From Clostridiales bacterium (GTDB lineage Bacteria > Bacillota > Clostridia > Christensenellales > Aristaeellaceae): DNA of 64,000 bases. Below are positions 6,616 to 57,736 of this stretch, piece by piece (within the stretch, counting starts at the first letter, position 1; every line of letters begins with the position of its first letter). The position numbers and the translations under genes were made by a program. The DNA is taken from the NCBI GenBank assembly GCA_015056415.1, contig SVGJ01000008.1, positions 1 through 64,000 of the forward strand. The letters are read 5' to 3'. The notes beneath the pieces are model-generated. The model was given only the letters and a program-made list of their open reading frames with translations, was not told the origin of the DNA and searched no databases.

Positions 6616-7257
6616 TCACACAAGGCGGCGTCCGGCCAGAGTCAGCCTTTCCTGCAAGCGGAAGAGAAACTCCTTGTTGGTGGGTTTTCCCTTTTCAGGA
6701 TCCACCGAATGTCCGAAGAACCGCTCCAGCGCCGCCAGTTCTCCCCTGCTCCAGGTGGATTCCACCAGGGTGCGCAGGCTGCGCTCCACCGCCGCGGGCG
6801 TCATGCCGTGCCGCCGCGCCACCAGCGGATACAGCCTGCCCCGCAGATCCTCCAGCAGCGGCGGATGCACCACCGTCAGGGCCGCCATATCCGCCAGGAA
6901 GCCCCACGCCCGCAGCCGGGGCTCCACCGTCAGCGCCCGCAGCAACGCGCGGCTCAGGCAGGTGACCTGCTCCAGCCGCAGCAGCGCTCCCACGGGGAGC
7001 CCCTGCGGCAGTTCCTCCCCCGCCCGGGCCACCCAGGGCGCGGCCAGCGGCGGACGCTCCAGCAGCCGCTGCGCCAGCGACTCCGCCTCGGGGCAGGGGC
7101 AAAGCAGGCACACCTCGTGGTATGTCTCGCACAGAGCGCGATAGGCGTCCTCCGCCCGCAGGAACACCTGTCCCTGCCACTCCTCGCCCCGGTTTTCCAT
7201 TTCCGCCAGCCAGCGCCGCCCCTGCGCAGGGGTTAAGGCCAGGATCACACACCGCAT
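6616..7257 (-). CDS. Spo0A effector-domain protein without a recognisable receiver
   Basis: The product is 213 residues. The C-terminal about 100 residues match the Spo0A DNA-binding domain (Spo0A_C): GMTPAAVERSLRTLVESTWS, then RFFGHSV and KGKPTNKEFL, the last being the most conserved Spo0A_C signature. The N-terminal half starts MRCVILALTPAQ and shows none of the acidic pocket or phosphoacceptor Asp of a Spo0A receiver. It therefore does not look phosphorylatable. The start at 7257 has AGAGGAGG eight bases upstream. It lies divergent from a MATE gene. Spo0A itself would be about 260 residues with a receiver, so this is a paralogue and not the master regulator. Target sites are unknown. Confidence 0.8.
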   Translation of the reverse strand: MRCVILALTPAQGRRWLAEMENRGEEWQGQVFLRAEDAYRALCETYHEVCLLCPCPEAESLAQRLLERPPLAAPWVARAGEELPQGLPVGALLRLEQVTCLSRALLRALTVEPRLRAWGFLADMAALTVVHPPLLEDLRGRLYPLVARRHGMTPAAVERSLRTLVESTWSRGELAALERFFGHSVDPEKGKPTNKEFLFRLQERLTLAGRRLV

Positions 7258-7340
7258 ACGCCGCCTCCTCTGTATCAGCAAGGGATTCGCCGCGGCCCGC
7301 CGCCTGCCCTTTGGCGGAATCTGTCTTCCTTTGCCGAGTC

Positions 7341-7369
7341 TTGCCAAGCGGGGGATTATTTGCTACAAT
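7341..7369 (+). promoter_or_regulatory. Sigma-A promoter of the second MATE gene
   Basis: TTGCCA (-35), 17-bp spacer, TACAAT (-10), 34 bases before the start codon. Confidence 0.65.
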
Positions 7370-7403
7370 TTTCCCTGTGCTTTCACTCAACAGGAGGAAT
7401 ACC

Positions 7404-8741
7404 ATGCAGGCCAATGATTTTTCCACCGGCTCGGTACGCCGGCAGATCATCGCGCAGGCCGCGCCGCTGACCATGGCCCAGCTGGTGCAGCTGCTCTATA
7501 ATATCGTAGACCGCATCTATATCGGCCACCTGCCCGAGGTGGGCAGCATTGCCCTGACGGGACTGGGCATCACCTTTCCGGTGATCGTGCTCATCGCCGC
7601 CTTCACCAGCCTGTTCGGGCAGGGCGGCACGCCGCTGTTTTCCATCGCCCGGGGCAGGAGGGACGAGCAGGAGGCAGAGGCCATCCTGGGCAATGTGTTC
7701 ACGCTGCTGGCCGTTTTCTCGGCGATCCTGTTCGTGGTGTGCTATACCCTGCGCCGACCGCTGCTGTTCCTCTTCGGCGCCAGCGAGGCCTCGTATCTCT
7801 ATGCGGATCAATACCTGCAGATCTACCTGCTGGGCACGTTTTTCTCCATGATCACCACCGGCCTGAACGGCTTCATCAACGCCCAGGGCTTCCCCAAATT
7901 CGGCATGATGACCACGGTGCTGGGCGCGGCGATCAACATCGCGCTGGATCCGCTGTTCATCTTCGTCTTCAATATGGGCGTACGGGGCGCGGCGCTGGCC
8001 ACGGTGATCAGTCAGGCCGTCTCCGCGCTGTGGGTGCTGCGGTTCCTCACCGGCAAAAGGGCCATCCTGCGGCTGAAGCGCCGGCACCTGCGGGTCCAGC
8101 CGGCCCGCACCCGGCGGATCGTCTCGCTGGGCACCAGCGGCTTTGTGATGCAGGGCACCAACTGCCTGGTGCAGATCGTGTGCAACAACCAGCTGCAGCT
8201 CCACGGCGGCGACCTGTACGTGGGCATCATGACGGTGCTCAACTCCGTGCGGGAGATCCTCTCGCTGCCGGTGGGCGGCCTGAGCAGCGGTGCGCAGCCG
8301 GTCATGGGCTACAACTACGGCGCCGGCCGCAACGACCGTGTGAAGGAAAGCGTGCGCTTCACCGCCCTGCTGGGCTTTGCCTATACCCTGGCCGCCTGGA
8401 TCCTGGTGATGCTCCTGCCCCGGCAGCTGATGGGCGTCTTCGCCAGCGACGCGGCCACCATCGATCACGGCATGGAGGCCATGTTCATCTACTTCTTCGG
8501 CTTTGTGTTCATGACGTTCCAGTTTGTCGGCCAGAACACCTTCCTGGCGCTGGGACGATCAAAGCAGGCGATCTTCTTTTCGCTTTTGCGCAAGGCCTTC
8601 ATCGTTGTGCCGCTGACGCTGCTGCTGCCCGGCATGGGGCTGGGCGTGAACGGCGTTTTCCTGGCGGAGCCCATCTCCAACGCGGTGGGCGGCCTGGCGG
8701 CGTTCATCACCATGTGGTTCACGGTGTACCGCAAGCTGTAA
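7404..8741 (+). CDS. MATE family efflux transporter
   Basis: The 445-residue, twelve-helix protein begins MQANDFSTGSVRRQIIAQAA, followed by LVQLLYNIVDRIYIGHLPE. These are typical of the MATE subgroup in Firmicutes that starts with a 'TGS...I...A.P' lead. It should export organic cations or metabolites by ion antiport. The start at 7404 has CAGGAGGAAT upstream and a consensus promoter 34 bases away; longer upstream frames run through that promoter. It lies divergent from the Spo0A_C gene, so it may be one of its targets (inference). A perfect terminator follows. Confidence 0.88.
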   Translation: MQANDFSTGSVRRQIIAQAAPLTMAQLVQLLYNIVDRIYIGHLPEVGSIALTGLGITFPVIVLIAAFTSLFGQGGTPLFSIARGRRDEQEAEAILGNVFTLLAVFSAILFVVCYTLRRPLLFLFGASEASYLYADQYLQIYLLGTFFSMITTGLNGFINAQGFPKFGMMTTVLGAAINIALDPLFIFVFNMGVRGAALATVISQAVSALWVLRFLTGKRAILRLKRRHLRVQPARTRRIVSLGTSGFVMQGTNCLVQIVCNNQLQLHGGDLYVGIMTVLNSVREILSLPVGGLSSGAQPVMGYNYGAGRNDRVKESVRFTALLGFAYTLAAWILVMLLPRQLMGVFASDAATIDHGMEAMFIYFFGFVFMTFQFVGQNTFLALGRSKQAIFFSLLRKAFIVVPLTLLLPGMGLGVNGVFLAEPISNAVGGLAAFITMWFTVYRKL

Positions 8742-33872: not shown

Positions 33873-34817
33873 TTAATCCTTTTCCATAATGCTGTCAACC
33901 ATATATTTTTCTTTCCTGCTGTGAGTAAACTCATACGCGACTTTCATATTGGTAATCAGCTGCCGGCACTCTTCAAGACTTTCTCCGTTTGCAAGTTCCT
34001 CTCTGAAAAGCCAAATGACCGTTTCAATATACAAACAGCGCAATAAAATCTCACAAGGAATACCTACACCGTCACCAAGCTTTTGTACGAAATCAATTAT
34101 GGCCTCCTTTGGCTCTGAGGTCAAATCATCTCTGAACTCATCAAGTATAAATCTCGATAAATCAAATACAGGGTCGCCTATTACTCCCTTAGGGTCAGTA
34201 ACCGTATAACCTCCATTTCCGTTCTTAAGTATATTCTCATGGTGTAAATCACCGTGCAGCAGAAGATTGCGAGAATACTTTTTGCATATATCTGTAAGCA
34301 TTCGCTCTGCACTGTCAAGATACCGATACAGTTCTTCACAATCCTCACGATTTTTCGTGCCTTCTTTACCAGCTTCAAACCATTCGGTGTATGTAGGGAA
34401 TGTACCATCGGGCAAGTCAGTCTTGTGCAGTCCTTTGAATATTCCGCCTGCAATCTTAATACGTTCGTTTCGGGGAGCACTTTCATATAAAGTATGGGCA
34501 GGTACAATTCGTTCCATTATGTATGCCTCATCTTCAAATGAATACTCATAAAGTTTGCAGAAATTCTCACCTTGAAACAATTTCAATGCCAGTATTTCAT
34601 TATCAAAACCATTGTCAATACGTATTTTGAGGATAACCTTACCGTATCGTTTTGAAACCGCATAGAAAATCAGGTTGTTATTGGAAAGCTCCGACTTAAA
34701 TTCTATTTCAGACAGTTCCCATTGCTTTTTGTATCTCTCTACAATACTGATTCGTTCGTTATAGCTTTCTGTTCCCAACTTTTTTATAAATCGTTCCGCT
34801 TGAATATCGGTCAACAA
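33873..34817 (-). CDS. Aminoglycoside/streptomycin-type phosphotransferase (APH(6)-like)
   Basis: The 314-residue kinase-fold protein has Brenner motif LLLHGDLHHENIL and Mg-binding TVTDPKGVIGDPVFDLSRF. These are the signature of the streptomycin 6-kinase/hydroxyurea phosphotransferase group. The N-terminal lobe has VSKRYGKVILKIRIDNG. It should phosphorylate a small hydroxyl compound such as an aminoglycoside using ATP; the actual drug is unproven. Its base composition is strikingly AT-rich beside neighbours of high GC, and its codon use is very different, so it was acquired recently. The best start is TTG at 34817 with AGAGG upstream; no in-frame ATG exists nearby. It is a single gene without a mobile element at its edges. 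Confidence 0.82.
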   Translation of the reverse strand: MLTDIQAERFIKKLGTESYNERISIVERYKKQWELSEIEFKSELSNNNLIFYAVSKRYGKVILKIRIDNGFDNEILALKLFQGENFCKLYEYSFEDEAYIMERIVPAHTLYESAPRNERIKIAGGIFKGLHKTDLPDGTFPTYTEWFEAGKEGTKNREDCEELYRYLDSAERMLTDICKKYSRNLLLHGDLHHENILKNGNGGYTVTDPKGVIGDPVFDLSRFILDEFRDDLTSEPKEAIIDFVQKLGDGVGIPCEILLRCLYIETVIWLFREELANGESLEECRQLITNMKVAYEFTHSRKEKYMVDSIMEKD

Positions 34818-46054: not shown

Positions 46055-46099
46055 TCAAATCGCGCCTGCCTCCCCCGGCGTCCAATCAATATACAAGTT
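46055..46099 (-). pseudogene. Remnant A of a spoIVB 3' end
   Basis: Read on the minus strand this short stretch gives FNLYIDWTPGEAGAI and a TGA stop. The intact SpoIVB ends GLYIDWMIQEAGQV and a stop, so NLYIDW.xxxEAG.. and the stop position agree. The frame is open for some codons upstream (RYTFN..), where it resembles remnant B (HRHTHVF). It is too short to be a gene. I interpret it as a leftover of an insertion at the 3' end of spoIVB. Confidence 0.5.
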
Positions 46100-46120
46100 G
46101 AATGTGTATCTGCGATATTC

Positions 46121-46160
46121 AAAAAGCGGGACTGTCAATTGCATGACAGTCCCGCAATTA
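46121..46160 (-). terminator. Terminator of the giant surface protein gene
   Basis: The 12-bp perfect stem GCGGGACTGTCA / TGACAGTCCCGC is followed on the minus strand by TTTTT, two bases from the stop codon. Confidence 0.85.
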
Positions 46161-46162
46161 TG

Positions 46163-49100
46163 TTATGCCTTTCTGCGCTTCAGTAGCAGCATCAGCATGG
46201 TAACAGATGCACCCATCAGCGTCATCCACAGAGTCAGCGACGCTTTGTCGCCAGTCTGCGGGATCTTTGCGTTGGTGATGGTACCGCCGTTGTCAGCATA
46301 CTCGGCAGAGGTGCCGTCTGCCAGCTCGTAGCTGGTTTCGTAGCCCTCAACAGGGATCTCCTTCACCGTGTAAACAGCAGGCATTCCGTCCACTTCGCCG
46401 GGCAGATCGTAGTACTTGTACCAGCCGTTGCGGTCAGGCTCCGGAGTCTTGTACTCCGTTGCCACGCCGTTGCAGTACAGCACCAGCTCGATCGTGGGAG
46501 CCGTCTCGTCCTCGGCCAGACCGCTCCATTCCTTCTTCACAGCGAAGTCTGCCTTCACGATGGCTTTGTTGATGATCGTGCCGCCGTCGTAGATCGCATT
46601 TGTTTCGTCCGCGTAAGGAGCCACGTTGCTGTAGATGGTCAGGAAGCCGTCAACGTACCTCTCCTCGGCGGAGTACACGATGATCTGATCCTGTTCATCA
46701 TACATGGGCAGGTCGGCATACACGTACACGTTCTCGTCACGGCTGTACGCGGGCTGAGGCTCGACCTTCTCGCCGTTGGCATACAGCGTCAGCTCAATGG
46801 CGCCGCCACCGCCGCCTTGCCAGCTCTTTTTCACCATGAACATGGTGGTCTTGAACTTATTCACAAAGCTGACTTCATTGGCGTTTTCGGACAGCGTTCC
46901 CTCAATGCTGTTGCCAGCGTTGCCGTTCACCATGGTATCAAAGGCCGCAGCGGCTGCTTCTGTCACAGAGTACTTCATGCCGGGCAGCAGTCCGGTGATG
47001 GTAACGCTCTGGCCGTGGGCAAGCACAATGTCGTCACCGCTCCTGATCTCGCCTTCCGCATCGCCAGTGTAGACATACCCGCCAGCAGCTTCGGTACCGT
47101 CAGCATGGTACAGCTTCACCGTGAAGGGGAAGGTTTCGGCCGTCTCCACGCCTTCCACCGTCTTGCTGATGGTCAGCGGTGCGTACAGGGTGTTGGCAAA
47201 GCTGATCTCCTCGACGATCTCACCGCTCTTGGTAATGACAGGCTTCACATCCAGCGTGCCGTCCTTGTTGTCAGTCACGGTCACATCCACCGTGTAGATG
47301 CTTTGATCTTTGGCCAGCAGTTCGGTAGACGCTGCGGTTTCCTGCACCGTGTAGGTGTAGGTCTTGCCTGCATCCGTCTGATCGTAGAACAGCGTGCCGA
47401 AAGAAATCTTGCCCTTTTCATTCTCGGCCAGTATGACATTGCCGTCCTGATCGGTCAGAGCAAACTCATACACCTGATCCTCGCGAGGTTCAATGCCATT
47501 CACGGTCTTGATCGCCTCTGGCTTCCACTCGCCTTGCGCCTTATACGCATTATCGAAGGTGATAGCTTCTTTGCTTTCTCCATCACTACTGATAGCTTTT
47601 GTCACCTTCAACGTGCCGTCGCCGTTATCGGCCACCCACACCGCCACAGCATACACCGTATTGTCAAGGGTATAGCCGGCCATAGCCTCTTGCTTCTCCT
47701 GCACCTTATACAAGAAGCTCTTGCCAATGTCCGCCTCGGTGTACGCTATCTCATTGAAGGCAATTTCACCCAGAGTGTTCTGCGTTGTTTGCAGCACGTT
47801 ATCCGCGGCATCCAGCAGTTCAAAGGTGAACACCTGATCCTCACGAGGCTCAGCAGCATTCACGGTCTTGGCAGCAGAAAGACTCAACGCGCCGGAAGCC
47901 TTATATGTGTAGGTGTTGCTCAGCGCGATCGTCACAGTCTCGTCCTTCACGATGGTCGCGCTGCCCTCCGTCACGCTTTCAGCAGCCAGCGTGTAGTTGG
48001 CGATCAGCGTATCAGCATTGGTCTCCGTGACGGTGTACTCCGTTCCCACGGGGATATCCCTGATGATGTACGCGCCATCGGTGAAGTCCGCATAGGTCAC
48101 GATCGTATCCTTCGTGCCATCGTTGATCGTGAAGCTCAGTCCGCTCAGATCAGCATCGGCAGGCTGACCGGAGAAGGTCTTCGTGATCCTCAGGCTACCA
48201 ACATCCTGCGTGTAGGTGTTGCTCAGCGCGATCGTCACAGTCTCGTCCTTCACGATGCTCGCGCTGCCCTCCGTCACGCTTTCAGCAGCCAGCGTGTAAT
48301 TGGCGATCAGCGTATCAGCATTGGTCTCCGTGACGGTGTACTCCGTTCCCACGGGGATATCCCTGATGATGTACGCGCCATCGGTGAAGTCCGCATAGGT
48401 CACGATCGTATCCTTCGTGCCATCGTTGATCGTGAAGCTCAGTCCGCTCAGATCAGCATCGGCAGGCTGACCGGAGAAGGTCTTCGTGATCCTCAGGCTA
48501 CCAACATCCTGCGTGTAGGTGTTGCTCAGCGCGATCGTCACAGTCTCGTCCTTCACGATGCTCGCGCTGCCCTCCGTCACGCTTTCAGCAGCCAGCGTGT
48601 AATTGGCGATCAGCGTATCAGCATTGGTCTCCGTGACGGTGTACTCCGTTCCCACGGGGATATCCCTGATGATGTACGCGCCATCGGTGAAGTCCGCATA
48701 GGTCACGATCGTATCCTTCGTGCCATCGTTGATCGTGAAGCTCAGTCCGCTCAGATCAGCATCGGCAGGCTGACCGGAGAAGGTCTTCGTGATCCTCAGG
48801 CTGCCGCTGTCCTGCGTGTTGGTGATCATTCCACCGTCCTCCACAGGATCGGCCGGCGTGGCGGTGTAGCCTGTATGGCCTTCGGTCTCCGCCACGGTAT
48901 ATGTGATCTTGATCCACTCTCCCTCGTCATTGACTTTTCCATAGCTCGGCAACCCGACGAACGAGACCTTCCAGGGTTCGCTCTCATAACCACCGACATA
49001 GTTGTATTCCGCCGGCGCATCATCCGCCTCGCCATCCAGCACAACGTGGTATTCGGTGGCCGTTGCTTCGCCTTCTCCCAGCTGCTGGAACAGCGTCAGC

Positions 49101-52100
49101 GTTACCTTCGCGTTCTCCGGAGGCGTTGTTGTGCCATCGATGTTCAGCCATTCCTTTTCCGCCGTGATGCCAATACGTTTGCGGTTGTTGAATACAATGC
49201 CGCTCGGCTGGGGATCAAGCCGGTTGTCATTTTCATCCGCAAACCACATGTTCAGATCCGGGCGGAAGTCGTTATCACCATCAGGCAACACGTCAACATG
49301 CAGGTAATACTTGGTATCATCCTGCGCATACAGCCAGTGATATCTTTCCCTGTCGCTGTCATCTGTCATGATGTTATACAGCTCCTTGATCTCAAACAGG
49401 AACGATTGTCCAATGGCCTCCTCATAGAAGCTGAAATCCAGTTCGATCTTCTCGCCCTTGTTCATGGTGTGGCCTGTACCACTCGCGTAACCATCCGCCT
49501 GGTTATATCCCTCGGGCATTTTAACCAGACTGGTACCAAAGCCAAAAACTTCGTCCTCGCGGGCGGGAACGCCGTTGATCGTCTTCCTGGCATCAAGCAC
49601 GATATGCAACGTAGTATCAAACTTGTTCGTCAATACTCCGTTTTCCGGATCATATTCCGGCAAGTAGCCAGGATAGCGCTCCGTTTCATCAAAGAAGTAG
49701 TAAATCGGCTCGAAGGTCGTTATGCCTTCTTCCAGGTACACTTCTTTGTATACAGGCAAATTCGGCACCGTCGCGACCCAGGGCGCGCTTTCATAACCGC
49801 CGCTGGCCGGTTTTTCATCAGCAACGCCGTCCAACCGGATCACATACGGCAGCTGCTCGCCATCCGCATACAGAACGAGTTCAACTTCTGCATCCTCGGG
49901 TGGATCTGTTGTTCCATCACCGTTCAGCCATCTCTTTTCAACGGAGATATCCGCCATTTCCGGACGATTGGTAATGGTGCCGCCGTCAGCCACAGGATCG
50001 GTGGGATCGGCAGCGTAACCGACGCAATCAGCCGTTTCCGCGACGGTATAGACAATGTCCTCACCAGTGGCGGAATCGGTCTTGGGCAGGTTCACGAAGG
50101 TCGCCTGCCACGCTTCGCTCTCATAGCCGCCGGCAGTGGGAGCGTTGTCCGCCGTGCCATCCAGGACCACGGTATAGTCGGTGGCAGTTCCATCCGCAAG
50201 CAGCGTAAACACGACCGCCGCGCCTGCAGGGGCGGTGGTGGTACCGTCGGCGTTCTCCCATGCCTTGTTTGCCGTAACGGAAATATTCTCAGGAACAGGC
50301 CTGTTGGCGATCGTCAAATAGGCGCCGTCAGTACTGATGGACAGATCATTATATATCTGTTCTGTTTTGATGTTGCCATTTTCGTCCAGCGTGAACTCCC
50401 AGGGGCTTTCCGCCGATTGCACATAACCGTTGGGAGCCGTATCTTCGCTCAGCGTGTAGCTCCCCGTTGTCAATTGCGTAAACTTCCATTCACCGGGCAC
50501 ATTGTGATGACTGTCCGGATCGATCGTAATGCCATTGGCATTTTTCAGCACCAGGGTGGCGCCATCCAGAAGGTTGCCCGTTTCATCCACCTTGCGCACA
50601 GTAAATGATATGGGATCATTGGTGATGGAATCTTCCACATAGCTGCCCGCGGGGATCGTTGTAACATCACAGCCGACCGCTGCTTTCAGCTCTGCCATTT
50701 CCACATCAGAGAAATCTCCCCCGGCGGGCAGCAGCGCATAGCACCACTTCCAGGGCGCAGTACCCAGCCGATAGCCATCCGGCGCCTTGGTTTCTTCGAT
50801 CACAAGGATCGTTACAGCCTCGATCTTCTTCTTGATCTCAATAACGCCGTTTGCATTGGCCGTCTTTTTCTCAGACTCGCCAGGTTTGTAATCCGATTCC
50901 AGCGTCGTTACAGTAAACTCCGCACCGGAAAGGAAGGTGGGAGAATCGCTATCCGCCCCTTCGCTGCTGATTTTCACCAGACGGATACCCGCTTCATCCG
51001 GACGGACGGAGAAGGAGCCGCTCTGATAGGAGGAGCTGACGTCAAAGGTGATGCTTTCCGCCTGAGGCTTCCGTCCTGCCAGGGAGGCATTATTCACCAG
51101 CGTAACATCCTTGGTGCCCACCGGCTGTGTGGTCTTCACCTGGTAGGTGAGCTTCATGGGCGTGTTATCCGGCACATCCAGCTTGAAGCTCTTGCCGTCT
51201 TCCGCCATCGTAAGCACATAGGTTGTAGCGGAGGCAACGGAGGAAGCGCTCATCTGCGCCCCGGTTTCCAGATTTGTCACCTTGAAAGAGGAAGCAACAT
51301 AGGCAAAAACATCTTTACCATCGCCCATACTATCTTCCAGCAGGATCACATCGCTGTCTTTTGCCAGGTCAAGACCAAGGGGATTCATTTCGATGGTGTA
51401 ATTCACCTTGCTGCCGCTGGACTCGAGGAACTTGCCCGTCTTGTCCATCATGGAGGCGTCGAAGCTCTTGGAGCCCGTGCTGATGGGCAGGGTATAGCTT
51501 TCGCCATTCCAGCCGATGGTGGCGGTATTGCTGTAATCCAGCACAATGGTGGAATCAGCAACGGATGCGGCATCCAGCGCATCCTGAATGGCCTCCGGCT
51601 TCAGAACGGTGTGGTAGGTGATGTATACGTCTTTACTGACATCCTTGTTTCCGCCGGCCCAGCCGCCGCCGGGAACGGTAAAGGTAAGGGTAAAGGTGCT
51701 GCCGTTCAGCACAACGCTGTCCGGAAGAATGATGTAGCCCGGCTTATCCTCTGCCTCGATCAGGAACAGCTCTTTCAGGGATTTCCCCGGATAGGAGGGG
51801 AACATCTGATTATCGGAAAGGGTGTCCGTCACGGTCACGGTGATCGGATCGGGGTCGTTTCCAAATTCCCGCGCGCCGATGAAGATCTTCCACAGAATCT
51901 CCTCGTTGCCATCACCATTGGCAGGGTTATCGTCATAGCCGCCGCTGAAGGCCTGCGCGCTGTTGCCATTAACAGTGCAAACAGTAAAGTTCCTGCCCGC
52001 CGTGGGATCATAATAGTCACCGTAAGCCGGCGCTTCCTTGCGCTTGGTGGCAAAGCCGCGATCGTAGTAGGCATTGATGCCATCCATCAATGCCACGCCC

Positions 52101-54664
52101 TGATTGGTATAGTTCAGCCAGCCATCATTCTTGATTCGATAATTCTGGCCGGGGGCATGGGTTTCATTGTTCAGATAGCACTGCACGTCGATGCTCTGGA
52201 AATAAACGGAATTCTGTTCCGCCAATACCGCGGCGACTGCTTCCATGTTCAGGTCAACAGCGAAACCATATTTGCCGTCTTCACCGAAATCGAAACCCTC
52301 CAGCTGCTTGACGATATTGTAGTGGATACCCTCTGCAAGCTGGATCGTTTTGTTATTTTCGCAAAGCATTTCCACCGTAATGGGCCAGTCATCGCTGTAG
52401 TGGATGGTCACTTCGCCGATGGGGGTCTGCCCGCGGGGAACAAGATCCACAATATCCAGATTATCAAGCCTGGTAAAGGGGATCTTGTTCTGGGTGTTGG
52501 AGCAGGTGATCTTCCACTGGGTCAGACTGTCGGTGCGCTCGATCACATGCTTTTTGCTCACATACAGGCGGCCGTTGCTGGTCAGATTGGGCTCAACCTC
52601 TCCGCGGATAGGGCCCGTGCCGAAGCCATCGCCGCTGGGCGTAGTGTGGGTAATAACATAGTTGTTCTTCAGCCCCGTGTTCACGTAGCCCAGTTCGTTA
52701 TCTGCATCCAGGGGCGTGGAGAAATACACCAGCTTATACAGCTTCACAGGGCTGCCGTCGGCGTTCGTATCAAGGTTTGCGTTGGTGAAGCTGAAGCCTT
52801 CTCCGTCCGCGTTGAAGTCCAGATAAGAAGTATCACTCACAGACGTAAGGGAGGCAAGACGTTCCTTGTGGTGGTTTTGGTCGGTAAAGCTGTGGATCTC
52901 GAAGGGATATTCCGAATTGACAAGCAATTCCATGCCCGCAAGGGTATCCACAAAGGTGGTCTTGTCGTAAAAATCCCAGCCAAACCAAACATCCCAGCGG
53001 ATGACGGGTTTCCCGTTATAGAACAGCAGTTCACCGGTCTGGGTATTCACTTCATAGCCGCCGTCCTTGCGGGGCTCTGTACGGTTGGGAATGGCCTGCT
53101 TGAATTCCTTGCTCTCGCCGGTGGGGCGACCATCAACAGAGGTCAGGTAGGCAGTATTGGAATAGCTTTGCGGATAGCTGTTCTGCAGGGTAGTGTCCAC
53201 AGCGCTGGTCACATCCGCAGGCACACGCAGATGATAAGCGCCCGGCTGCAGCATTTGCCCATCAGGAGCGGTGATGGTAACCACGTTTTCCCCCGAAGCA
53301 TTGATCGCGCTGGTAACGGTAGCGTTGGCCGTGGTCAGCACGGCAGTGCTGATGTCGTTGTTCCAGTAATCGGCGGATGTATCCACGCCTTCCAGCGAAG
53401 GGGCGGCCGGCGCAGTGCGGAAAGAGAGAGAATAATTGGGATGATCGGTAACGGTAAAGGTGGAAACAGGTTCCCGGATGTAGACTACCACACGGAAATC
53501 AATGTAGTAATTGTCGGAATCCTCATCCAAATAAACGCCCTTGAAATCCGGTGCTTTTTCGGTGAAAGCATTCTTATCGATCTTGAACTGGTTCTCGGTC
53601 ACCTCATCCCACGCCATGGTGGCCGTGGCCGTAAGCGGGATCTTCAGGGAGGCACCGTTCTCTTTCAGTTCGACTGTATTGGTCTTCTGGACATCGGTGT
53701 AGCCTGTCAGTTTGGCCGAAGCAGCTTCAGGCTTGACCTTCATTTTATATACAAAAGTATAAGAGCCCTTTTGCAGCATCTGATCCGAACTGGAAATAGT
53801 GAGCGTGTTTTCTGTTCCGCTATTTACCTTTGTAACAGCAACGTTTTCTCCCTCGGGTGAAACAACAGTGATCACGTCCAGGATCTCGCCCTGCAGCGCC
53901 CCGTCTGCTTCCACCGTATCCACAAGGGTAAGGGCTGCACAATACTTATCGCTTTCCGCCGTAGCAGAAAGCTTCATGTTCTGGTCCAGCGTCAGTGTCA
54001 CCGAATAATCCACCAAATAGGAGGAAGCATCCGTGCTGTAGTAAGGAACACTCGCCGATTTGGCAAGCTCATAGCCCGTCTTCATCTGGAGGGGGAAGGC
54101 TTCGCCGGCCGCATTGAACACGACCCTGCCGTCGCTGCCCTTATCCACCACATTCAGCGTGCCATCAAAGCCCAGCGACACATTTTCCATCACGGTATTG
54201 CTGCCGGCCTTGTCGATCCAGTTTTGATCGAACCGAATGCGGATCACATCGTTGGTTTCATCAATCCACCAGCGGAACAGCGGTTCATTATCCACAAGAG
54301 CAACATTATCAAAATCCTCCGGATTGATCTCCGCAGGATAATTGCCGTCTATGTGGCCGGTGAAGTCCAGAGGAATGGTAAAGTCCGCCTCCGGATTGCT
54401 TTTCAGGTATGTCACCAGCTTCTGGCTGTCAAAACCGCTGATTTGCAGGTCAAAGAACAGCTTCTGCCCGTTTTCAACATATTGGGGCAGTTCAGTTCCT
54501 TCCTTATTGACTTTCAGCGTGGCATGAACAGACGCTGCATAGTCTTTCAGCGGCACCTCCGCCTGAGCATAGGCCACCCCGCCCATGCTCAACAGCAATA
54601 AAAGGCACAGCAACCATGCTGCCCCCTTACGCCAAACGGTTTTCAATGCCATCTTCCGTGCCAT
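46163..54664 (-). CDS. Giant LPXTG-type wall-anchored adhesin with Cna-B and pilin-like repeats
   Basis: The product is 2833 residues with a signal peptide (WLLCLLLLLSMGGVAYAQA). A large N-terminal region (about 40-1220) forms beta-rich isopeptide-type domains with repeats of 'FTLTFTVPGGG' style. A SpaA-like domain follows (RLVKISSEGADSD, then FLSGAEFTVTTLES). Next come Cna-B modules ('VEKRWLNGDGTTDPPEDAEV'), three nearly identical 101-residue repeats (about 1950-2253) and FctA/Spy0128-like modules (KTVNAAEPREDQVFTFELL). The C-terminus is IPQTGDKASLTLWMTLMGAS followed by a membrane helix and RRKA, a sortase substrate signal with I in place of L. It is covalently wall-attached and probably adhesive. 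ATG 54664 has GGGAGG nine bases upstream; a GTG precedes it. No sortase lies nearby. Confidence 0.88.
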   Translation of the reverse strand: MARKMALKTVWRKGAAWLLCLLLLLSMGGVAYAQAEVPLKDYAASVHATLKVNKEGTELPQYVENGQKLFFDLQISGFDSQKLVTYLKSNPEADFTIPLDFTGHIDGNYPAEINPEDFDNVALVDNEPLFRWWIDETNDVIRIRFDQNWIDKAGSNTVMENVSLGFDGTLNVVDKGSDGRVVFNAAGEAFPLQMKTGYELAKSASVPYYSTDASSYLVDYSVTLTLDQNMKLSATAESDKYCAALTLVDTVEADGALQGEILDVITVVSPEGENVAVTKVNSGTENTLTISSSDQMLQKGSYTFVYKMKVKPEAASAKLTGYTDVQKTNTVELKENGASLKIPLTATATMAWDEVTENQFKIDKNAFTEKAPDFKGVYLDEDSDNYYIDFRVVVYIREPVSTFTVTDHPNYSLSFRTAPAAPSLEGVDTSADYWNNDISTAVLTTANATVTSAINASGENVVTITAPDGQMLQPGAYHLRVPADVTSAVDTTLQNSYPQSYSNTAYLTSVDGRPTGESKEFKQAIPNRTEPRKDGGYEVNTQTGELLFYNGKPVIRWDVWFGWDFYDKTTFVDTLAGMELLVNSEYPFEIHSFTDQNHHKERLASLTSVSDTSYLDFNADGEGFSFTNANLDTNADGSPVKLYKLVYFSTPLDADNELGYVNTGLKNNYVITHTTPSGDGFGTGPIRGEVEPNLTSNGRLYVSKKHVIERTDSLTQWKITCSNTQNKIPFTRLDNLDIVDLVPRGQTPIGEVTIHYSDDWPITVEMLCENNKTIQLAEGIHYNIVKQLEGFDFGEDGKYGFAVDLNMEAVAAVLAEQNSVYFQSIDVQCYLNNETHAPGQNYRIKNDGWLNYTNQGVALMDGINAYYDRGFATKRKEAPAYGDYYDPTAGRNFTVCTVNGNSAQAFSGGYDDNPANGDGNEEILWKIFIGAREFGNDPDPITVTVTDTLSDNQMFPSYPGKSLKELFLIEAEDKPGYIILPDSVVLNGSTFTLTFTVPGGGWAGGNKDVSKDVYITYHTVLKPEAIQDALDAASVADSTIVLDYSNTATIGWNGESYTLPISTGSKSFDASMMDKTGKFLESSGSKVNYTIEMNPLGLDLAKDSDVILLEDSMGDGKDVFAYVASSFKVTNLETGAQMSASSVASATTYVLTMAEDGKSFKLDVPDNTPMKLTYQVKTTQPVGTKDVTLVNNASLAGRKPQAESITFDVSSSYQSGSFSVRPDEAGIRLVKISSEGADSDSPTFLSGAEFTVTTLESDYKPGESEKKTANANGVIEIKKKIEAVTILVIEETKAPDGYRLGTAPWKWCYALLPAGGDFSDVEMAELKAAVGCDVTTIPAGSYVEDSITNDPISFTVRKVDETGNLLDGATLVLKNANGITIDPDSHHNVPGEWKFTQLTTGSYTLSEDTAPNGYVQSAESPWEFTLDENGNIKTEQIYNDLSISTDGAYLTIANRPVPENISVTANKAWENADGTTTAPAGAAVVFTLLADGTATDYTVVLDGTADNAPTAGGYESEAWQATFVNLPKTDSATGEDIVYTVAETADCVGYAADPTDPVADGGTITNRPEMADISVEKRWLNGDGTTDPPEDAEVELVLYADGEQLPYVIRLDGVADEKPASGGYESAPWVATVPNLPVYKEVYLEEGITTFEPIYYFFDETERYPGYLPEYDPENGVLTNKFDTTLHIVLDARKTINGVPAREDEVFGFGTSLVKMPEGYNQADGYASGTGHTMNKGEKIELDFSFYEEAIGQSFLFEIKELYNIMTDDSDRERYHWLYAQDDTKYYLHVDVLPDGDNDFRPDLNMWFADENDNRLDPQPSGIVFNNRKRIGITAEKEWLNIDGTTTPPENAKVTLTLFQQLGEGEATATEYHVVLDGEADDAPAEYNYVGGYESEPWKVSFVGLPSYGKVNDEGEWIKITYTVAETEGHTGYTATPADPVEDGGMITNTQDSGSLRITKTFSGQPADADLSGLSFTINDGTKDTIVTYADFTDGAYIIRDIPVGTEYTVTETNADTLIANYTLAAESVTEGSASIVKDETVTIALSNTYTQDVGSLRITKTFSGQPADADLSGLSFTINDGTKDTIVTYADFTDGAYIIRDIPVGTEYTVTETNADTLIANYTLAAESVTEGSASIVKDETVTIALSNTYTQDVGSLRITKTFSGQPADADLSGLSFTINDGTKDTIVTYADFTDGAYIIRDIPVGTEYTVTETNADTLIANYTLAAESVTEGSATIVKDETVTIALSNTYTYKASGALSLSAAKTVNAAEPREDQVFTFELLDAADNVLQTTQNTLGEIAFNEIAYTEADIGKSFLYKVQEKQEAMAGYTLDNTVYAVAVWVADNGDGTLKVTKAISSDGESKEAITFDNAYKAQGEWKPEAIKTVNGIEPREDQVYEFALTDQDGNVILAENEKGKISFGTLFYDQTDAGKTYTYTVQETAASTELLAKDQSIYTVDVTVTDNKDGTLDVKPVITKSGEIVEEISFANTLYAPLTISKTVEGVETAETFPFTVKLYHADGTEAAGGYVYTGDAEGEIRSGDDIVLAHGQSVTITGLLPGMKYSVTEAAAAAFDTMVNGNAGNSIEGTLSENANEVSFVNKFKTTMFMVKKSWQGGGGGAIELTLYANGEKVEPQPAYSRDENVYVYADLPMYDEQDQIIVYSAEERYVDGFLTIYSNVAPYADETNAIYDGGTIINKAIVKADFAVKKEWSGLAEDETAPTIELVLYCNGVATEYKTPEPDRNGWYKYYDLPGEVDGMPAVYTVKEIPVEGYETSYELADGTSAEYADNGGTITNAKIPQTGDKASLTLWMTLMGASVTMLMLLLKRRKA
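47905..48813 (-). repeat. Three 303-bp tandem repeats in the adhesin gene
   Basis: Unit boundaries repeat exactly every 303 bases (compare 47911, 48214, 48517), with only a few base changes between units. Each encodes a 101-residue module that begins GSLRITKTFSGQPADADLSG. Near identity at synonymous sites means recent duplication or ongoing conversion. Confidence 0.92.
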
Positions 54665-54741
54665 CACGCAATTCCTCCCGGCATAATCTATCTAAAACAT
54701 TGACAACACAAATAGTGCAAAGGTACAATTTGCCAATTTCT

Positions 54742-54770
54742 ATTATCATACAACATTTTGTGTTTGTCAA
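54742..54770 (-). promoter_or_regulatory. Promoter of the adhesin gene
   Basis: Minus strand: TTGACA (54765-54770), 17-bp spacer, GATAAT (54742-54747). The leader of about 80 bases is AT-rich. Confidence 0.7.
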
Positions 54771-54911
54771 TAGTATTGATACCTTATACCGTGCCTCCGT
54801 GTTGAGGCAATGCAAAAATATGCAGATTCACCATACATTCAAAAGCGCAACGCGCAAATTGATACCATGAGAGGCGATATGCAACACTCTGAAGGGGAAG
54901 CACAACGTTCT

Positions 54912-54998
54912 TTATTCTCTGATTTGTTCACTCTCCCCCAGCACCCAGTCAATATAGACCCCGTATCCCTGATCGGGACTGGAAATGAATACATGGGT
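54912..54998 (-). pseudogene. Remnant B of a spoIVB 3' end
   Basis: Read on the minus strand this gives THVFISSPDQGYGVYIDW and then a short tail (VLGESEQIRE) and stop. The intact SpoIVB has THVFVGDPQQGYGLYIDW, so 13 of 18 residues match while many synonymous bases differ. The copy therefore came from a divergent spoIVB and not from recent duplication of the local one. It has no start, and upstream sequence does not match. The rest of the 344-base gap (54668-55011) holds only the adhesin leader, promoter and AT-rich sequence. Confidence 0.7.
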
Positions 54999-55011
54999 AT
55001 GTCGGTGATAC

Positions 55012-55419
55012 CTATTTATTCTTCATATCTTGCAAGCGACAATAACGTTTGAAGAAAGATTCAGCCAACTCCGCTTTTCCGTGTTCTGTATAATAAGTGA
55101 TCGCCATATCGCAGATATCTTCTGCCAACACGAATTCCCTACGCTTCTCATAGATTATCGCTAATCGTGAAAAAGCAGGGATTCTTCCAATGAACATACT
55201 TGTCAGCCTGTTATTTGCATAAGCTGCATCGAGTTCATGAAGGTGTTCAATATCCTCCAAACAAAAGTGAATGCATCTGTCTACATAGTCTTCGCTTATG
55301 GAACGATACATATAATAAAAATCTTGAAGCTCAATACAAACAAAGTGTCGCTTCGAAGCATCCTTTTCCAGTGTATATTTCTTTAACAATTGTTTTTCCT
55401 GACGCGCATCAAACTGCAA
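55012..55419 (-). CDS. C-terminal part of the frameshifted TerB_N-like gene
   Basis: The 135 residues begin at a TTG (QFDARQEKQLLKKYTLEKDA) and are helix-rich, with FVLAEDICDMAITYYTEHGK near the end. No ribosome site precedes the TTG. The frame overlaps the end of the preceding gene by 37 bases. Read in the -1 frame from the A6 tract, it follows on smoothly from 55383-56390 (EKKTRISKPLQFDARQ). So this is most likely the rest of the same protein and not an independent gene. The base composition is AT-rich, like its other half. Confidence 0.6.
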   Translation of the reverse strand: MQFDARQEKQLLKKYTLEKDASKRHFVCIELQDFYYMYRSISEDYVDRCIHFCLEDIEHLHELDAAYANNRLTSMFIGRIPAFSRLAIIYEKRREFVLAEDICDMAITYYTEHGKAELAESFFKRYCRLQDMKNK

Positions 55420-56390
55420 GGGTTTAGAAATTCGCGTTTTTTCTCAATTTCGACAGCAACGATTTCCCCTGCTTGTCTACGCTTCCTGAGCTCTATCTTT
55501 AGCTCTTCATGCGTTTTTTCAAGTATTTCTCGAATTACGTCTTTTAGTGGCTTATAGCTCAACAAAAAAGGAATATCAATCCATCTTGAATTAAGCGAAA
55601 CATTAGCATAAACTGCTATGCTTTGCTTTTGTAGATCACCCCATTGGTTAGAAGTGAAAAAATCACTTATGAACAGAGAGGTAATTCCGTACAATACTTT
55701 CATTTGGTTCTCAAGGGTTGATATGAATTCTGTTGGGTAGTTCTTTATGTAATTCAATTTTCGGAAATCAACATCTTTTGCCATACGAACCAAATCTGCT
55801 GGCACAAGAGGCAATCCAAGTAGGAACTTACAGATTGCGTAAAGATTACAAGAAAACTGATACTCATAGTCTTTTTCTATTGAGCACATGAATTGCTGAA
55901 GCAAATCAAGTCTTTGATGTGACAGGATGCTAATAACAAGCGCATGTGCGGAATACAGTTGAAATGATGAGTTATCATAGACTTTTCTCAATGTCAAAAT
56001 AACCTTCACAGCTGCCTCGAGGTCTCCTTCTACGAGGTGCCGTTCTAGCCCATAATAAAGCAAGAAAACATAGCCGATCCTTGCATCTCCCTCATAGGGA
56101 TTTTGCAAAAACGCCCAATAGGCTCCCCTTTGTTTTGCAGTCAAATCAGAATACTTAGGATAGTATGGCGGTTCTTTCATATTTGGTTCATCGCTTTCAA
56201 AGGATACTGCATCATTCACAGACATTACACTGGGTTCATCATTCCCAGGCTGTGAAATCCAAGCAACCACCACACCATCTTGACAAATCGCCTCTTGGCG
56301 GCATTTTTTTGAATAGTTTTTCTCTGGGCCATCGTTCCACCATAACAACTTCTTCAAATCTTCATGAGCAACATACTCCAATCTACTCAT
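55383..56390 (-). CDS. TerB_N-domain-like protein, N-terminal part
   Basis: The 335 residues begin MSRLEYVAHEDLKKLLWWND. The segment after about residue 95 (KQRGAYWAFLQNPYEG, RIGYVFLLYYGLERHLV, TLRKVYDNSSFQLYSAHALV) fits the TerB N-terminal domain found with tellurite-resistance-type and uncharacterised proteins; function is unknown. GGAGGAG is eight bases before ATG 56390. The frame ends early at 55383 after an A6 tract (plus-strand 55437-55442), and a -1 shift there restores a longer product. The gene is AT-rich, unlike spoIVB beside it, so it was acquired. Its own promoter lies between it and the spoIVB terminator. Confidence 0.65.
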   Translation of the reverse strand: MSRLEYVAHEDLKKLLWWNDGPEKNYSKKCRQEAICQDGVVVAWISQPGNDEPSVMSVNDAVSFESDEPNMKEPPYYPKYSDLTAKQRGAYWAFLQNPYEGDARIGYVFLLYYGLERHLVEGDLEAAVKVILTLRKVYDNSSFQLYSAHALVISILSHQRLDLLQQFMCSIEKDYEYQFSCNLYAICKFLLGLPLVPADLVRMAKDVDFRKLNYIKNYPTEFISTLENQMKVLYGITSLFISDFFTSNQWGDLQKQSIAVYANVSLNSRWIDIPFLLSYKPLKDVIREILEKTHEELKIELRKRRQAGEIVAVEIEKKREFLNPCSLMRVRKNNC

Positions 56391-56431
56391 TATCATCTCC
56401 TCCAGCGATCTTATGTTTTCTCAGTAGTATG

Positions 56432-56440
56432 ATTATACCA
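56432..56440 (-). promoter_or_regulatory. Extended -10 promoter of the TerB_N-like gene
   Basis: Minus strand TGGTATAAT (an extended -10), with no good -35. It lies about 45 bases upstream of the start and just after the spoIVB terminator. Confidence 0.45.
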
Positions 56441-56450
56441 TATCACGAAC

Positions 56451-56477
56451 AGAAAAAACAGAGGCTAAATAGCCCCT
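56451..56477 (-). terminator. spoIVB terminator
   Basis: Minus strand AGGGGCTA / TAGCCTCT (one G-U pair) then GTTTTTT, right at the end of spoIVB. Confidence 0.75.
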
Positions 56478-56479
56478 GC

Positions 56480-57736
56480 TTACACTTGTCCCGCCTCCTG
56501 AATCATCCAATCAATGTACAATCCATACCCTTGCTGGGGATCCCCCACAAATACGTGCGTCACGGCCCCGATGAGCCGCCCGTCCTGGATGATCGGGCTG
56601 CCGCTCATGCCCTGCACGATGCCGCCGGTGGCCGCCAGAAGGCGCTCATCGGTCACTTTGATGACCATGCTCTTGGGAGCAGGCGCGCTTTGCTGGTTCA
56701 CCCGGGTGATCTCGATGGTGAATTCCTGCACACCCGTGCCGTCTACCGTGGAGAGGATCGTCGCCGGGCCCTCGTGTACGCCGGAGCGCAGGCCGATGGG
56801 CAGGCCTTCGGGATACAGGGCGCAGGCGGGGGCCTGCGTCATCCGGCCGTAGATGCCCAGCGTGTTGTTCTTTTGAATGTCCCCCAGCGTTTGGGGATCC
56901 ATCAGAAAGCTGCCCTTCAATTCCCCCGGGGCGCCCTTCTGGCCGCGCTGCACCGCCACCACGTCCGCCCGGAGGATCTGGCCCTGGCTCACCGTGAGCA
57001 CCTGCCCGGTATCGCCATCGGTGATGGCGTGGCCCAGCGCGGCGTAGCTGCTGGTTTCCGGGTCATAGAAGCTCAGGGTGCCCACGCCGGCGGTGCTGTC
57101 CCGCACCCAGGCGCCGATGCGTACGGTGCCAGTGGTGCTGTCCATTTGGGGCGTCATGGTGGTGGTGAAAACAGCGCCTTCCCGGGCATACTCCACAGGC
57201 AGGGGCTTTTCACCCAGCTGGGCGATCAGCTCCGTCAGCTGCTGGGCGCTGATGATCCTCACGCCGTTCACGCTGCGCAGTACGTCGCCGGGCCGGATGC
57301 CGCACAGCGAGGCAGGACTGGCGCCCTCGGTCAGGTCGCTGGTGCCTACCACCAGCACGCCATCGGTACGCATGGCCACGCCGATGGCCGCGCCGCCGGG
57401 GATCAGCCGTTTTTCCGGGCTGACCTGAACCTCCACCCTCTTCAGCGGCAGAACGCCCATCAGGCTCAGCATCAGTTCGCTGGTTCCGGCGGTCTCGCTG
57501 ACCAGCTCCACCTGCCCCAGGGTCTCATCCTGTGTGGCGGAAACCGCCGTTTCGCCCTTGTGTGCCACCAGCCGCAGCTGCGGGCCAAGGTTCAGCGTCT
57601 GCACCTGTCCCTGGGTGAGGGCAAGGGTATCGGGCAGGGTGCGCAGCGTCTTCTGCAGAGGCGAAAAATACCCCAGCGCAAGAAACATCGCCAGCACCAC
57701 GCCAGTGGCACGCTTTAATCGTGAAGCTCTTTTCAT
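56480..57736 (-). CDS. spoIVB: SpoIVB serine peptidase (S55)
   Basis: The product is 418 residues: N-terminal membrane anchor (VVLAMFLALGYFSPL), PDZ domain (about 130-200, with SLCGIRPGDVLRSVNGVRI), then the S55 peptidase. The catalytic His236 (LGHAITD), Asp363 (VTDERLL) and Ser378 (GMSGSP) coincide with the residue numbers of Bacillus subtilis SpoIVB. It is secreted from the forespore into the intermembrane space, where it cleaves SpoIVFA to start pro-sigma-K processing. The start at 57736 has GAGGG seven bases upstream. It has its own terminator. Its 3' end is the apparent target of the accessory insertions downstream. Confidence 0.95.
   Translation of the reverse strand: MKRASRLKRATGVVLAMFLALGYFSPLQKTLRTLPDTLALTQGQVQTLNLGPQLRLVAHKGETAVSATQDETLGQVELVSETAGTSELMLSLMGVLPLKRVEVQVSPEKRLIPGGAAIGVAMRTDGVLVVGTSDLTEGASPASLCGIRPGDVLRSVNGVRIISAQQLTELIAQLGEKPLPVEYAREGAVFTTTMTPQMDSTTGTVRIGAWVRDSTAGVGTLSFYDPETSSYAALGHAITDGDTGQVLTVSQGQILRADVVAVQRGQKGAPGELKGSFLMDPQTLGDIQKNNTLGIYGRMTQAPACALYPEGLPIGLRSGVHEGPATILSTVDGTGVQEFTIEITRVNQQSAPAPKSMVIKVTDERLLAATGGIVQGMSGSPIIQDGRLIGAVTHVFVGDPQQGYGLYIDWMIQEAGQV

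Follow-up and report, generated by a model that had tools for sequence, protein, structure and literature searches.

The 64,000-nucleotide stretch analyzed here (the window: contig SVGJ01000008.1 of the Clostridiales assembly GCA_015056415.1, positions 1 to 64,000) raises the question of why the 3' end of a single gene, spoIVB, should stand in it three times on the same strand. This gene encodes the protease of forespore-to-mother-cell signalling. We consider it probable that two cassettes stand here as an array, each of them closed by a short half-site and a displaced spoIVB tail, and that site-specific insertion at the attachment site of a large serine integrase, via accretion, produced this array.

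Three spoIVB tails in the window

The intact gene, its attachment site and the two cassettes are arranged as follows (positions are those of the window).

56480..57736, minus strand: intact spoIVB, 418 codons, carrying the attachment site (Peptidase_S55, E 2.8e-85, and PDZ_6)
56552..56560, minus strand: putative recombination core within spoIVB, codons T393-H394-V395, ACGCACGTA, the left limit of the remnant tails
56480..56551, minus strand: spoIVB tail A, 3' of the core (43 of 45 bases as in remnant G010_2418)
54999..56559, minus strand: cassette 1, about 1.56 kb including the tail, 40% GC
54999..55012, minus strand: half-site B, GGTATCACCGACAT, right end of cassette 1 (13 of 14 consensus positions)
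54912..54998, minus strand: displaced spoIVB tail B with its stop codon (junction alignment and a Pfam-independent match to spoIVB)
46106..54998: cassette 2, with an adhesin-like gene as cargo
46106..46119, minus strand: decayed half-site C, AATATCGCAGATAC, right end of cassette 2 (9 of 14 consensus positions)
46055..46105, minus strand: displaced spoIVB tail C, with about 10 internal codons deleted (local score against shuffles)

The intact SpoIVB ends with THVFVGDPQQGYGLYIDWMIQEAGQV and a stop codon, and translation of the minus strand gives THVFISSPDQGYGVYIDWVLGESEQIRE and a stop for copy B (54998-54912) and TFNLYIDWTPGEAGAI and a stop for copy C (46105-46055), confirming the three tails that a sequence-only reading of the window had reported. 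Directly 5' of codon T393 the remnant tails carry a short sequence, with the degenerate consensus GGTATCAYCGMCAC, which is missing from the intact gene of the window. The likeness of the two flanks (YHRHT and YRRYT) that had been noticed in that reading is real, to the degree listed above for half-sites B and C, and is the key feature of the junction. The junction at copy B is beyond chance (local alignment score of 40.4 against the remnant junctions of other genomes), and that at copy C is weak, though above chance, with a score of 23.0; when the 762 bp that follow the adhesin gene were shuffled 100 times (first order), the maximum was 19.6. The remnants match spoIVB well beyond chance and no cargo-free pair of remnants occurs among the loci read; the sequence-only reading had named the opposite of each as evidence against itself. 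In the window genome (G000; 82 contigs, 84% complete) a profile search found one spoIVB copy, with a full-length domain and not split.

A local duplication of the resident tail, or a chance likeness, would agree with copies that lie close together on one strand, yet it is extremely improbable: tails A and B are just 60% identical 3' of the core, the half-site is absent from spoIVB, and the same junctions stand beside other cargo in other species, with no match for the reversed control and a high half-site score.

The resident tail itself looks foreign beside those of its closest kin. Over the 45 bases 3' of the core, the spoIVB of the window shares 43 with a remnant of genome G010 and 32-34 with the intact tails of its four nearest kin, the same four to which its 600 bases upstream are 83-85% identical; other intact tails match at no more than 36 of the 45 bases. 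Judged by this comparison, which concerns one genome, tail A was likely imported with the first cassette, and the att-type import of tails proposed in the sequence-only reading gains support.

Recurrence of the junction in related genomes

A search for SpoIVB in 150 relatives gave matches in 113 of them. Among the matches listed, several genomes have extra matches limited to approximately residues 392-417, on the same strand and behind the intact gene. In the regions fetched for the window's genus, GGTATCAYCGMCAC abuts ACNCAYGTG in the remnant tails, and the intact gene differs there. A pattern of this junction (28 positions, at most 3 mismatches), applied to 308 family genomes, matched 19 places in 13 of them, namely in 10 of the 18 genomes of the window's genus and in 3 of genus g14, with 0 matches for the reversed-pattern control. 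Cargo and its order differ between these genomes, which supports serial insertion at the spoIVB 3' end, as proposed from the window alone. The eight junction-free genomes of the genus include three unable to show a junction: G001 is without a spoIVB match, spoIVB is partial in G011, and the contig of G002 stops 155 bp behind the gene. One of the 19 places (G012:C39) is on a contig where intact spoIVB was not seen. The half-site scores on average 12.9 of 14 at 19 remnants outside the window versus 0.3 of 14 at 19 intact genes, and is decayed at copy C of the window and at the distal copy of G004. The 17 related loci come from metagenome-assembled Clostridia (1 Christensenellaceae), 9 of them from deer, sheep or goat gut.

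The regularity of these junctions bears on homologous recombination, by which RecA would swap cassettes between strains through spoIVB, the flanks or the roughly 80-bp repeats of the tail, and the sites would be relics. Tails are indeed alike over about 75 bases in many genomes, and shared cassettes could travel with flanking DNA. Nevertheless, the left limit at T393 is sharp and constant and the half-site is conserved beside unrelated cargo, so that a site-specific step is needed, at least at the origin; in addition, the tails are short for efficient RecA exchange. We therefore hold exchange by homologous recombination to be improbable.

In a second type of junction the limit falls at GMSGSP, the catalytic serine motif, and the half-site resembles TGTTGTCCCTAATGACAATCA. 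The pattern of this half-site (at most 3 mismatches) matched in 16 of 396 genomes and its reversed control in 12, and type-2 matches were consequently used solely where a spoIVB tail adjoins. Those in G436:C51 and G477 were retained, as was one in G148 with a decayed tail; a match in G436:C49 was dropped, having no spoIVB tail.

No common empty site could be aligned, since among three proteins encoded downstream in the window only the ABC ATPase found relatives (37% identical, in G009 and G013). Outside the genus, a response-regulator-like gene, as read from the sequence, lies 3' of the tail in G130, G148 and G410, and 8 kb further on in G477; it is likely spo0A.

Cargo of the cassettes

The displaced tails of the window separate two different cargos, a TerB_N-like gene and an 8.5-kb adhesin gene, and the open reading frames (ORFs) and Pfam matches bear out this part of the sequence-only reading.

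55383..56396, minus strand: first ORF of the TerB_N-like gene, 337 aa, cargo of cassette 1 (PF13208, E 1.5e-8)
55012..55419, minus strand: second ORF of this frameshifted gene, 135 aa, in another frame (ORF list; no Pfam match)
46163..54667, minus strand: adhesin-like gene, 2834 codons (8.5 kb), cargo of cassette 2 (SpaA, Cna_B, DUF5979, FctA and DUF7601 domains)

The two ORFs of the TerB_N-like gene result from a frameshift near 55,420 (55383-55443), and the first has a weak PADLOC match to SngA (E 1.2e-9). The interior of the adhesin gene (47907-48824) contains a 303-bp repeat in three tandem units that are 98% identical.

Across the genomes, that of the window included, the cassettes measure 0.5-8.9 kb, with a GC content of 0.37-0.61. 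They hold one or few accessory genes, mostly a single gene in either orientation, and no recombinase was found among their cargo.

G009, G012: MFS-type transporter (named from sequence, not by search)
G005, G012: helix-turn-helix (HTH) protein
G016, G017: 393-aa protein
G004, G009, G010: PfkB-type kinase (named from sequence, not by search)
G010: LRR_5 surface protein
G084, G061: type-2 cassette, presumably ArsR-ChrA-ChrA-like (ChrA 91% identical)
G018: type-2 cassette, PtuA/PtuB (Septu) pair (PADLOC, E 7.5e-147 and 3.2e-86)

Cargo is thus common to several species in differing order, and it is more similar between genomes than the gene behind which it stands: in all six protein pairs with both values, the identity of the cargo exceeds that of SpoIVB (78 versus 68%, 92 versus 86%, 88 versus 74%, 95 versus 81%, 95 versus 63% and 95 versus 62%). 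In G007 an LRR gene like that of G010 lies directly behind the intact spoIVB, and a spoIVB tail was looked for after this gene and not found. G016 has a gene 84% identical to that of the kinase cassette (locus L043, positions 7202-8098, in the orientation of spoIVB), 4.6 kb past the last tail recognised in that genome.

The most distal remnant is decayed in four of the five arrays with at least two remnants (in G012 none is), which fits growth of the array from the spoIVB side.

Elsewhere in the window, an AT-rich island at 33873-34817 (41% GC at 34-35 kb), with GC-rich genes on either side, contains an ORF that we take to be phosphotransferase-like from its HGDLHHEN motif.

Serine integrases and split spoIVB genes

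Which enzyme could act at this site? The sequence-only reading had seen no integrase and suggested, among other things, a recombinase acting from elsewhere. This suggestion stands in so far as a serine integrase adjoins displaced tails in other genera; in the window's own genus none close to it was found at E <= 1e-30. G225:C141 encodes a large serine integrase of 512 aa, and 23 bp separate its stop codon from a type-1 junction with a spoIVB tail. Like the integrase of G266, this enzyme has the Resolvase catalytic domain (PF00239), the Recombinase domain (PF07508) and the zinc ribbon (PF13408). Integrases of this type occur in 5 of the 308 family genomes, G225 included, at E <= 1e-100, and in four of these five no more than about 25 bp lie between the integrase stop codon and the start of a spoIVB tail. 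The closest solved chain to the G266 integrase is YokA (SprA) of SPbeta (E 8.2e-47), and SprA rebuilds spsM during sporulation (PMC4191935; this and the other papers are cited from excerpts).

In G266:C49 and G253:C71 an element splits spoIVB at codon 393, the left limit of the remnant tails, and the 5' part of spoIVB, the element, the integrase and the tail are all on one contig. The G266 element (approximately 7.1 kb) encodes an arabinofuranosidase C-terminal domain, a radical SAM protein and the integrase, and that of G253 (12.4 kb) ORFs of 717 and 2713 aa and the integrase. The integrase is at the right end of both, and the core, ACNCAYGTG in relatives, is common to the left and right junctions of both elements in the form ACYCACGTG. 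When the ends are joined, five of six elements form perfect inverted repeats of 10-13 bp, with none as long in 1000 shuffles each; in four of the six elements the two ends were taken from different contigs. An attP (about 50 bp) is expected to have inverted arms flanking a short core, and the same five elements show this layout. Type-2 right ends carry three serine recombinases (G061:C16 and G410:C6; domains tested for G061). ParA/ParB genes lie 3' of the type-1 left end on G009:C38 (Pfam), and ParA/ParB-like genes, read from the sequence, near the left ends of G061:C18 and G215:C13. In G061 an element's left end lies within spoIVB on contig C18, and a separate contig, C259, carries an array with two or more tails.

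The analysis of relatives also adds a fact that is invisible from the window: there, spoIVB can be split outright. A search of 10 genomes with PF05580 found the domain cut in seven (G266, G253, G225, G212, G215, G061 and G410), at profile position 195-196 or 175, with the remaining tail elsewhere and no full-length copy. A full copy is present in G000, G436 and G009, the last of which has a cut copy as well, on C38. SpoIVA is kept in all 10 genomes. Contig C38 of G009 (locus L150) is probably a contaminant; its cut spoIVB is 53% identical to that of the window, and its left element end resembles that of G215:C13. In G212, G225 and G410 the halves of spoIVB are on different contigs (L170, L175 and L176 for G212/G225; L153 and L179 for G410), and near their inner ends are chromosomal-looking genes (rseP-, glmM- and dnaK-like, as read from the sequence), so that they may be separated by a very large insert, through rearrangement, or only through faulty assembly.

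Tyrosine recombinases (PF00589) have matches in all 18 genomes of the window's genus, none of them in or beside any array. Neither PF00589 nor PF07508 matched within the arrays of these genomes, the nearest match on an array contig being about 10 kb beyond, in G012:C22. With the serine integrase then found beside the tails, a tyrosine recombinase was dropped as a candidate. Further same-strand runs of two to three serine recombinases occur away from spoIVB on G005:C66 (L157), G016:C41 (L160) and G061:C70 (L156).

Both junction motifs gave 0 exact matches in IMG/VR, and among 80 loci kept from 130 relatives of the G266 integrase in the viral collection, none had a spoIVB tail by the pattern used. 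One 42-kb IMG/VR record (G670, locus L181) has a 62% identical integrase at its edge. The record ends GGTATCATC...ACACATG, and its integrase is followed by GGTATCATCAAGTCACACACACATG, near to the half-site and core of the genus, with no spoIVB at the edge.

How the array may have grown

The left end of each cassette is a regenerated core and the right end a hybrid site composed of the half-site and a spoIVB tail. In one respect the cassettes fit cis-mobilizable (accretion) elements: att-like sites flank them, and they have no integrase of their own. As reported in PMC3783163, phage-type serine integrases do not act on other pairings of sites. The two sites of a cassette are not a pair that phage-type integration would join; an element upstream of the cassette or a more permissive enzyme could move it.

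Most likely, the non-autonomous cassettes were stacked by hitch-hiking (accretion) with integrase elements. An integrase element would enter spoIVB at the core ACNCAYGTG (codons 393-395). Standing upstream of a cassette, it could leave through its own right-hand site or through that of the cassette, and in the latter case the cassette would be carried along, with the donor's spoIVB tail in front. In a new host the element would exit through its own right-hand site, and the cassette would stay behind. The donor's tail would complete spoIVB, the former tail would come to lie further downstream, and a new round could begin at the vacated attachment site. In this way the array, itself lacking a recombinase, would be extended at its spoIVB end, and the sporulation gene would remain unbroken. 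Accretion is preferred because the joined ends are symmetric in five of the six integrase elements and because G061 has an element end as well as an array.

Alternatively, a permissive serine recombinase supplied in trans might join the core to the hybrid site of a free cassette circle, inserting cassettes one by one with no companion element. The layout of cassette chromosomes such as those of staphylococci is alike, with the gene regenerated on the left, a dyad half-site on the right and several attR per locus in 16 of 32 ECCs (PMC6222049); recombination of non-canonical site pairs has been reported for Ccr enzymes (PMC5595907), and none of the cassettes found needs a companion. On the other hand, the integrases found here sit on elements with symmetric joined ends that break spoIVB, and the restricted pairing reported for phage-type enzymes argues in the same direction. 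We judge direct insertion to be rather unlikely.

Several observations weigh against growth by accretion at a serine-integrase site. Where the cassettes restore spoIVB, both complete elements interrupt it, and a complete element with a cassette on one contig was not found, the pieces in G061 being on separate contigs. The joined ends of the G253 element are hardly palindromic (a 5-bp repeat, reached in 256 of 1000 shuffles; whole-site score reached in 122 of 2000), and the integrase of G215 has no adjoining tail, one being found about 9 kb beyond it. Of the four decayed distal tails, three follow the same kinase cassette, so that they do not count as independent cases. A rank test of gene body versus tail in 16 genes did not discriminate (rho 0.10; control blocks 0.11-0.56), and all genomes are metagenome bins. 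Finally, no match to the G266 integrase at E <= 1e-30 was found in the 18 genomes of the genus, an empty result that is weak by itself. The enzyme that built the array of the window is consequently one that we infer and did not see; in this genus it may have been lost, never sampled, or more divergent than expected.

Implications

Our analysis of these loci permits, as a tentative possibility, a wider interpretation. In part of the clade spoIVB may be a split gene, cut by serine-integrase elements at codon 393 in some cases and at the catalytic serine motif in others; these elements would be excised in sporulation like skin and SPbeta, and the gene thereby rebuilt. The window would then represent a second state, in which passengers bring their own gene end and form an integron-like collection served by a serine integrase. 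If this is true, cargo (surface proteins, transporters and one anti-phage Septu pair) would pile up without a cost to sporulation. The seven relatives with split spoIVB make it directly testable whether another sporulation signalling gene is rebuilt by DNA excision.

The 3' end of spoIVB would be a new collecting point for borrowed genes, among them surface proteins and a defence pair, and their likely mover is the large serine integrase family. The half-site together with the spoIVB tail makes a defined, searchable site for accessory genes in spore-forming gut bacteria. The integrases and their sites are also candidate integration tools.

Comparison with known systems

Our literature searches, limited to open-access papers, found no island or cassette array at spoIVB. 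Integron arrays consist of ordered small cassettes, each with a recombination site, and grow from one fixed end. The spoIVB array likewise contains ordered small cassettes with their own sites; unlike in integrons, no tyrosine integrase is in or beside it, and the site is the end of a coding gene plus a half-site.

The staphylococcal and enterococcal cassette chromosomes (SCC and ECC) at the 3' end of rlmH also use the end of a conserved gene as attachment site and regenerate it, and they share with the spoIVB system large serine recombinases, several attR per locus and a dyad in attR (PMC6222049). They differ in the target, in that many spoIVB cassettes are single genes without a recombinase, and in that the integrase-bearing relatives described here break their target gene. 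Tandem islands with gene 3'-end repeats are also known at ssrA of Dehalococcoides, some with a CcrB-like serine integrase; 15 of these islands lack the integration module, and movement by accretion was proposed for them (PMC3146451). Their target is the tmRNA gene, and they are larger, with a multi-gene integration module (PMC3146451).

Integrative and conjugative elements (ICEs) with a serine-integrase triplet carry it on one strand at one end beside the target, as in G061:C16 and G410:C6, and streptococcal rumA-type ICEs exchange the gene 3' end with a single integrase (PMC4701971). The targets of these ICEs are mutT, traG, hsdM and rumA, and the excerpts describe no cassette array (PMC4701971).

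Closest to the split genes are skin (sigK), SPbeta (spsM) and gin (gerE), in which a serine-integrase element splits a sporulation gene as in the spoIVB relatives; the core of gin measures 9 bp, and gin encodes three serine recombinases, as many as are found at type-2 spoIVB ends (PMC5595907, PMC4191935). The excerpts of these papers do not name spoIVB as a target of an intervening element (PMC5595907, PMC4191935). In contrast to these elements, the spoIVB of the window is intact, and the split is seen in seven relatives. Arrays at gene 3' ends and elements that split sporulation genes were both known already; spoIVB is one gene at which the two phenomena meet.

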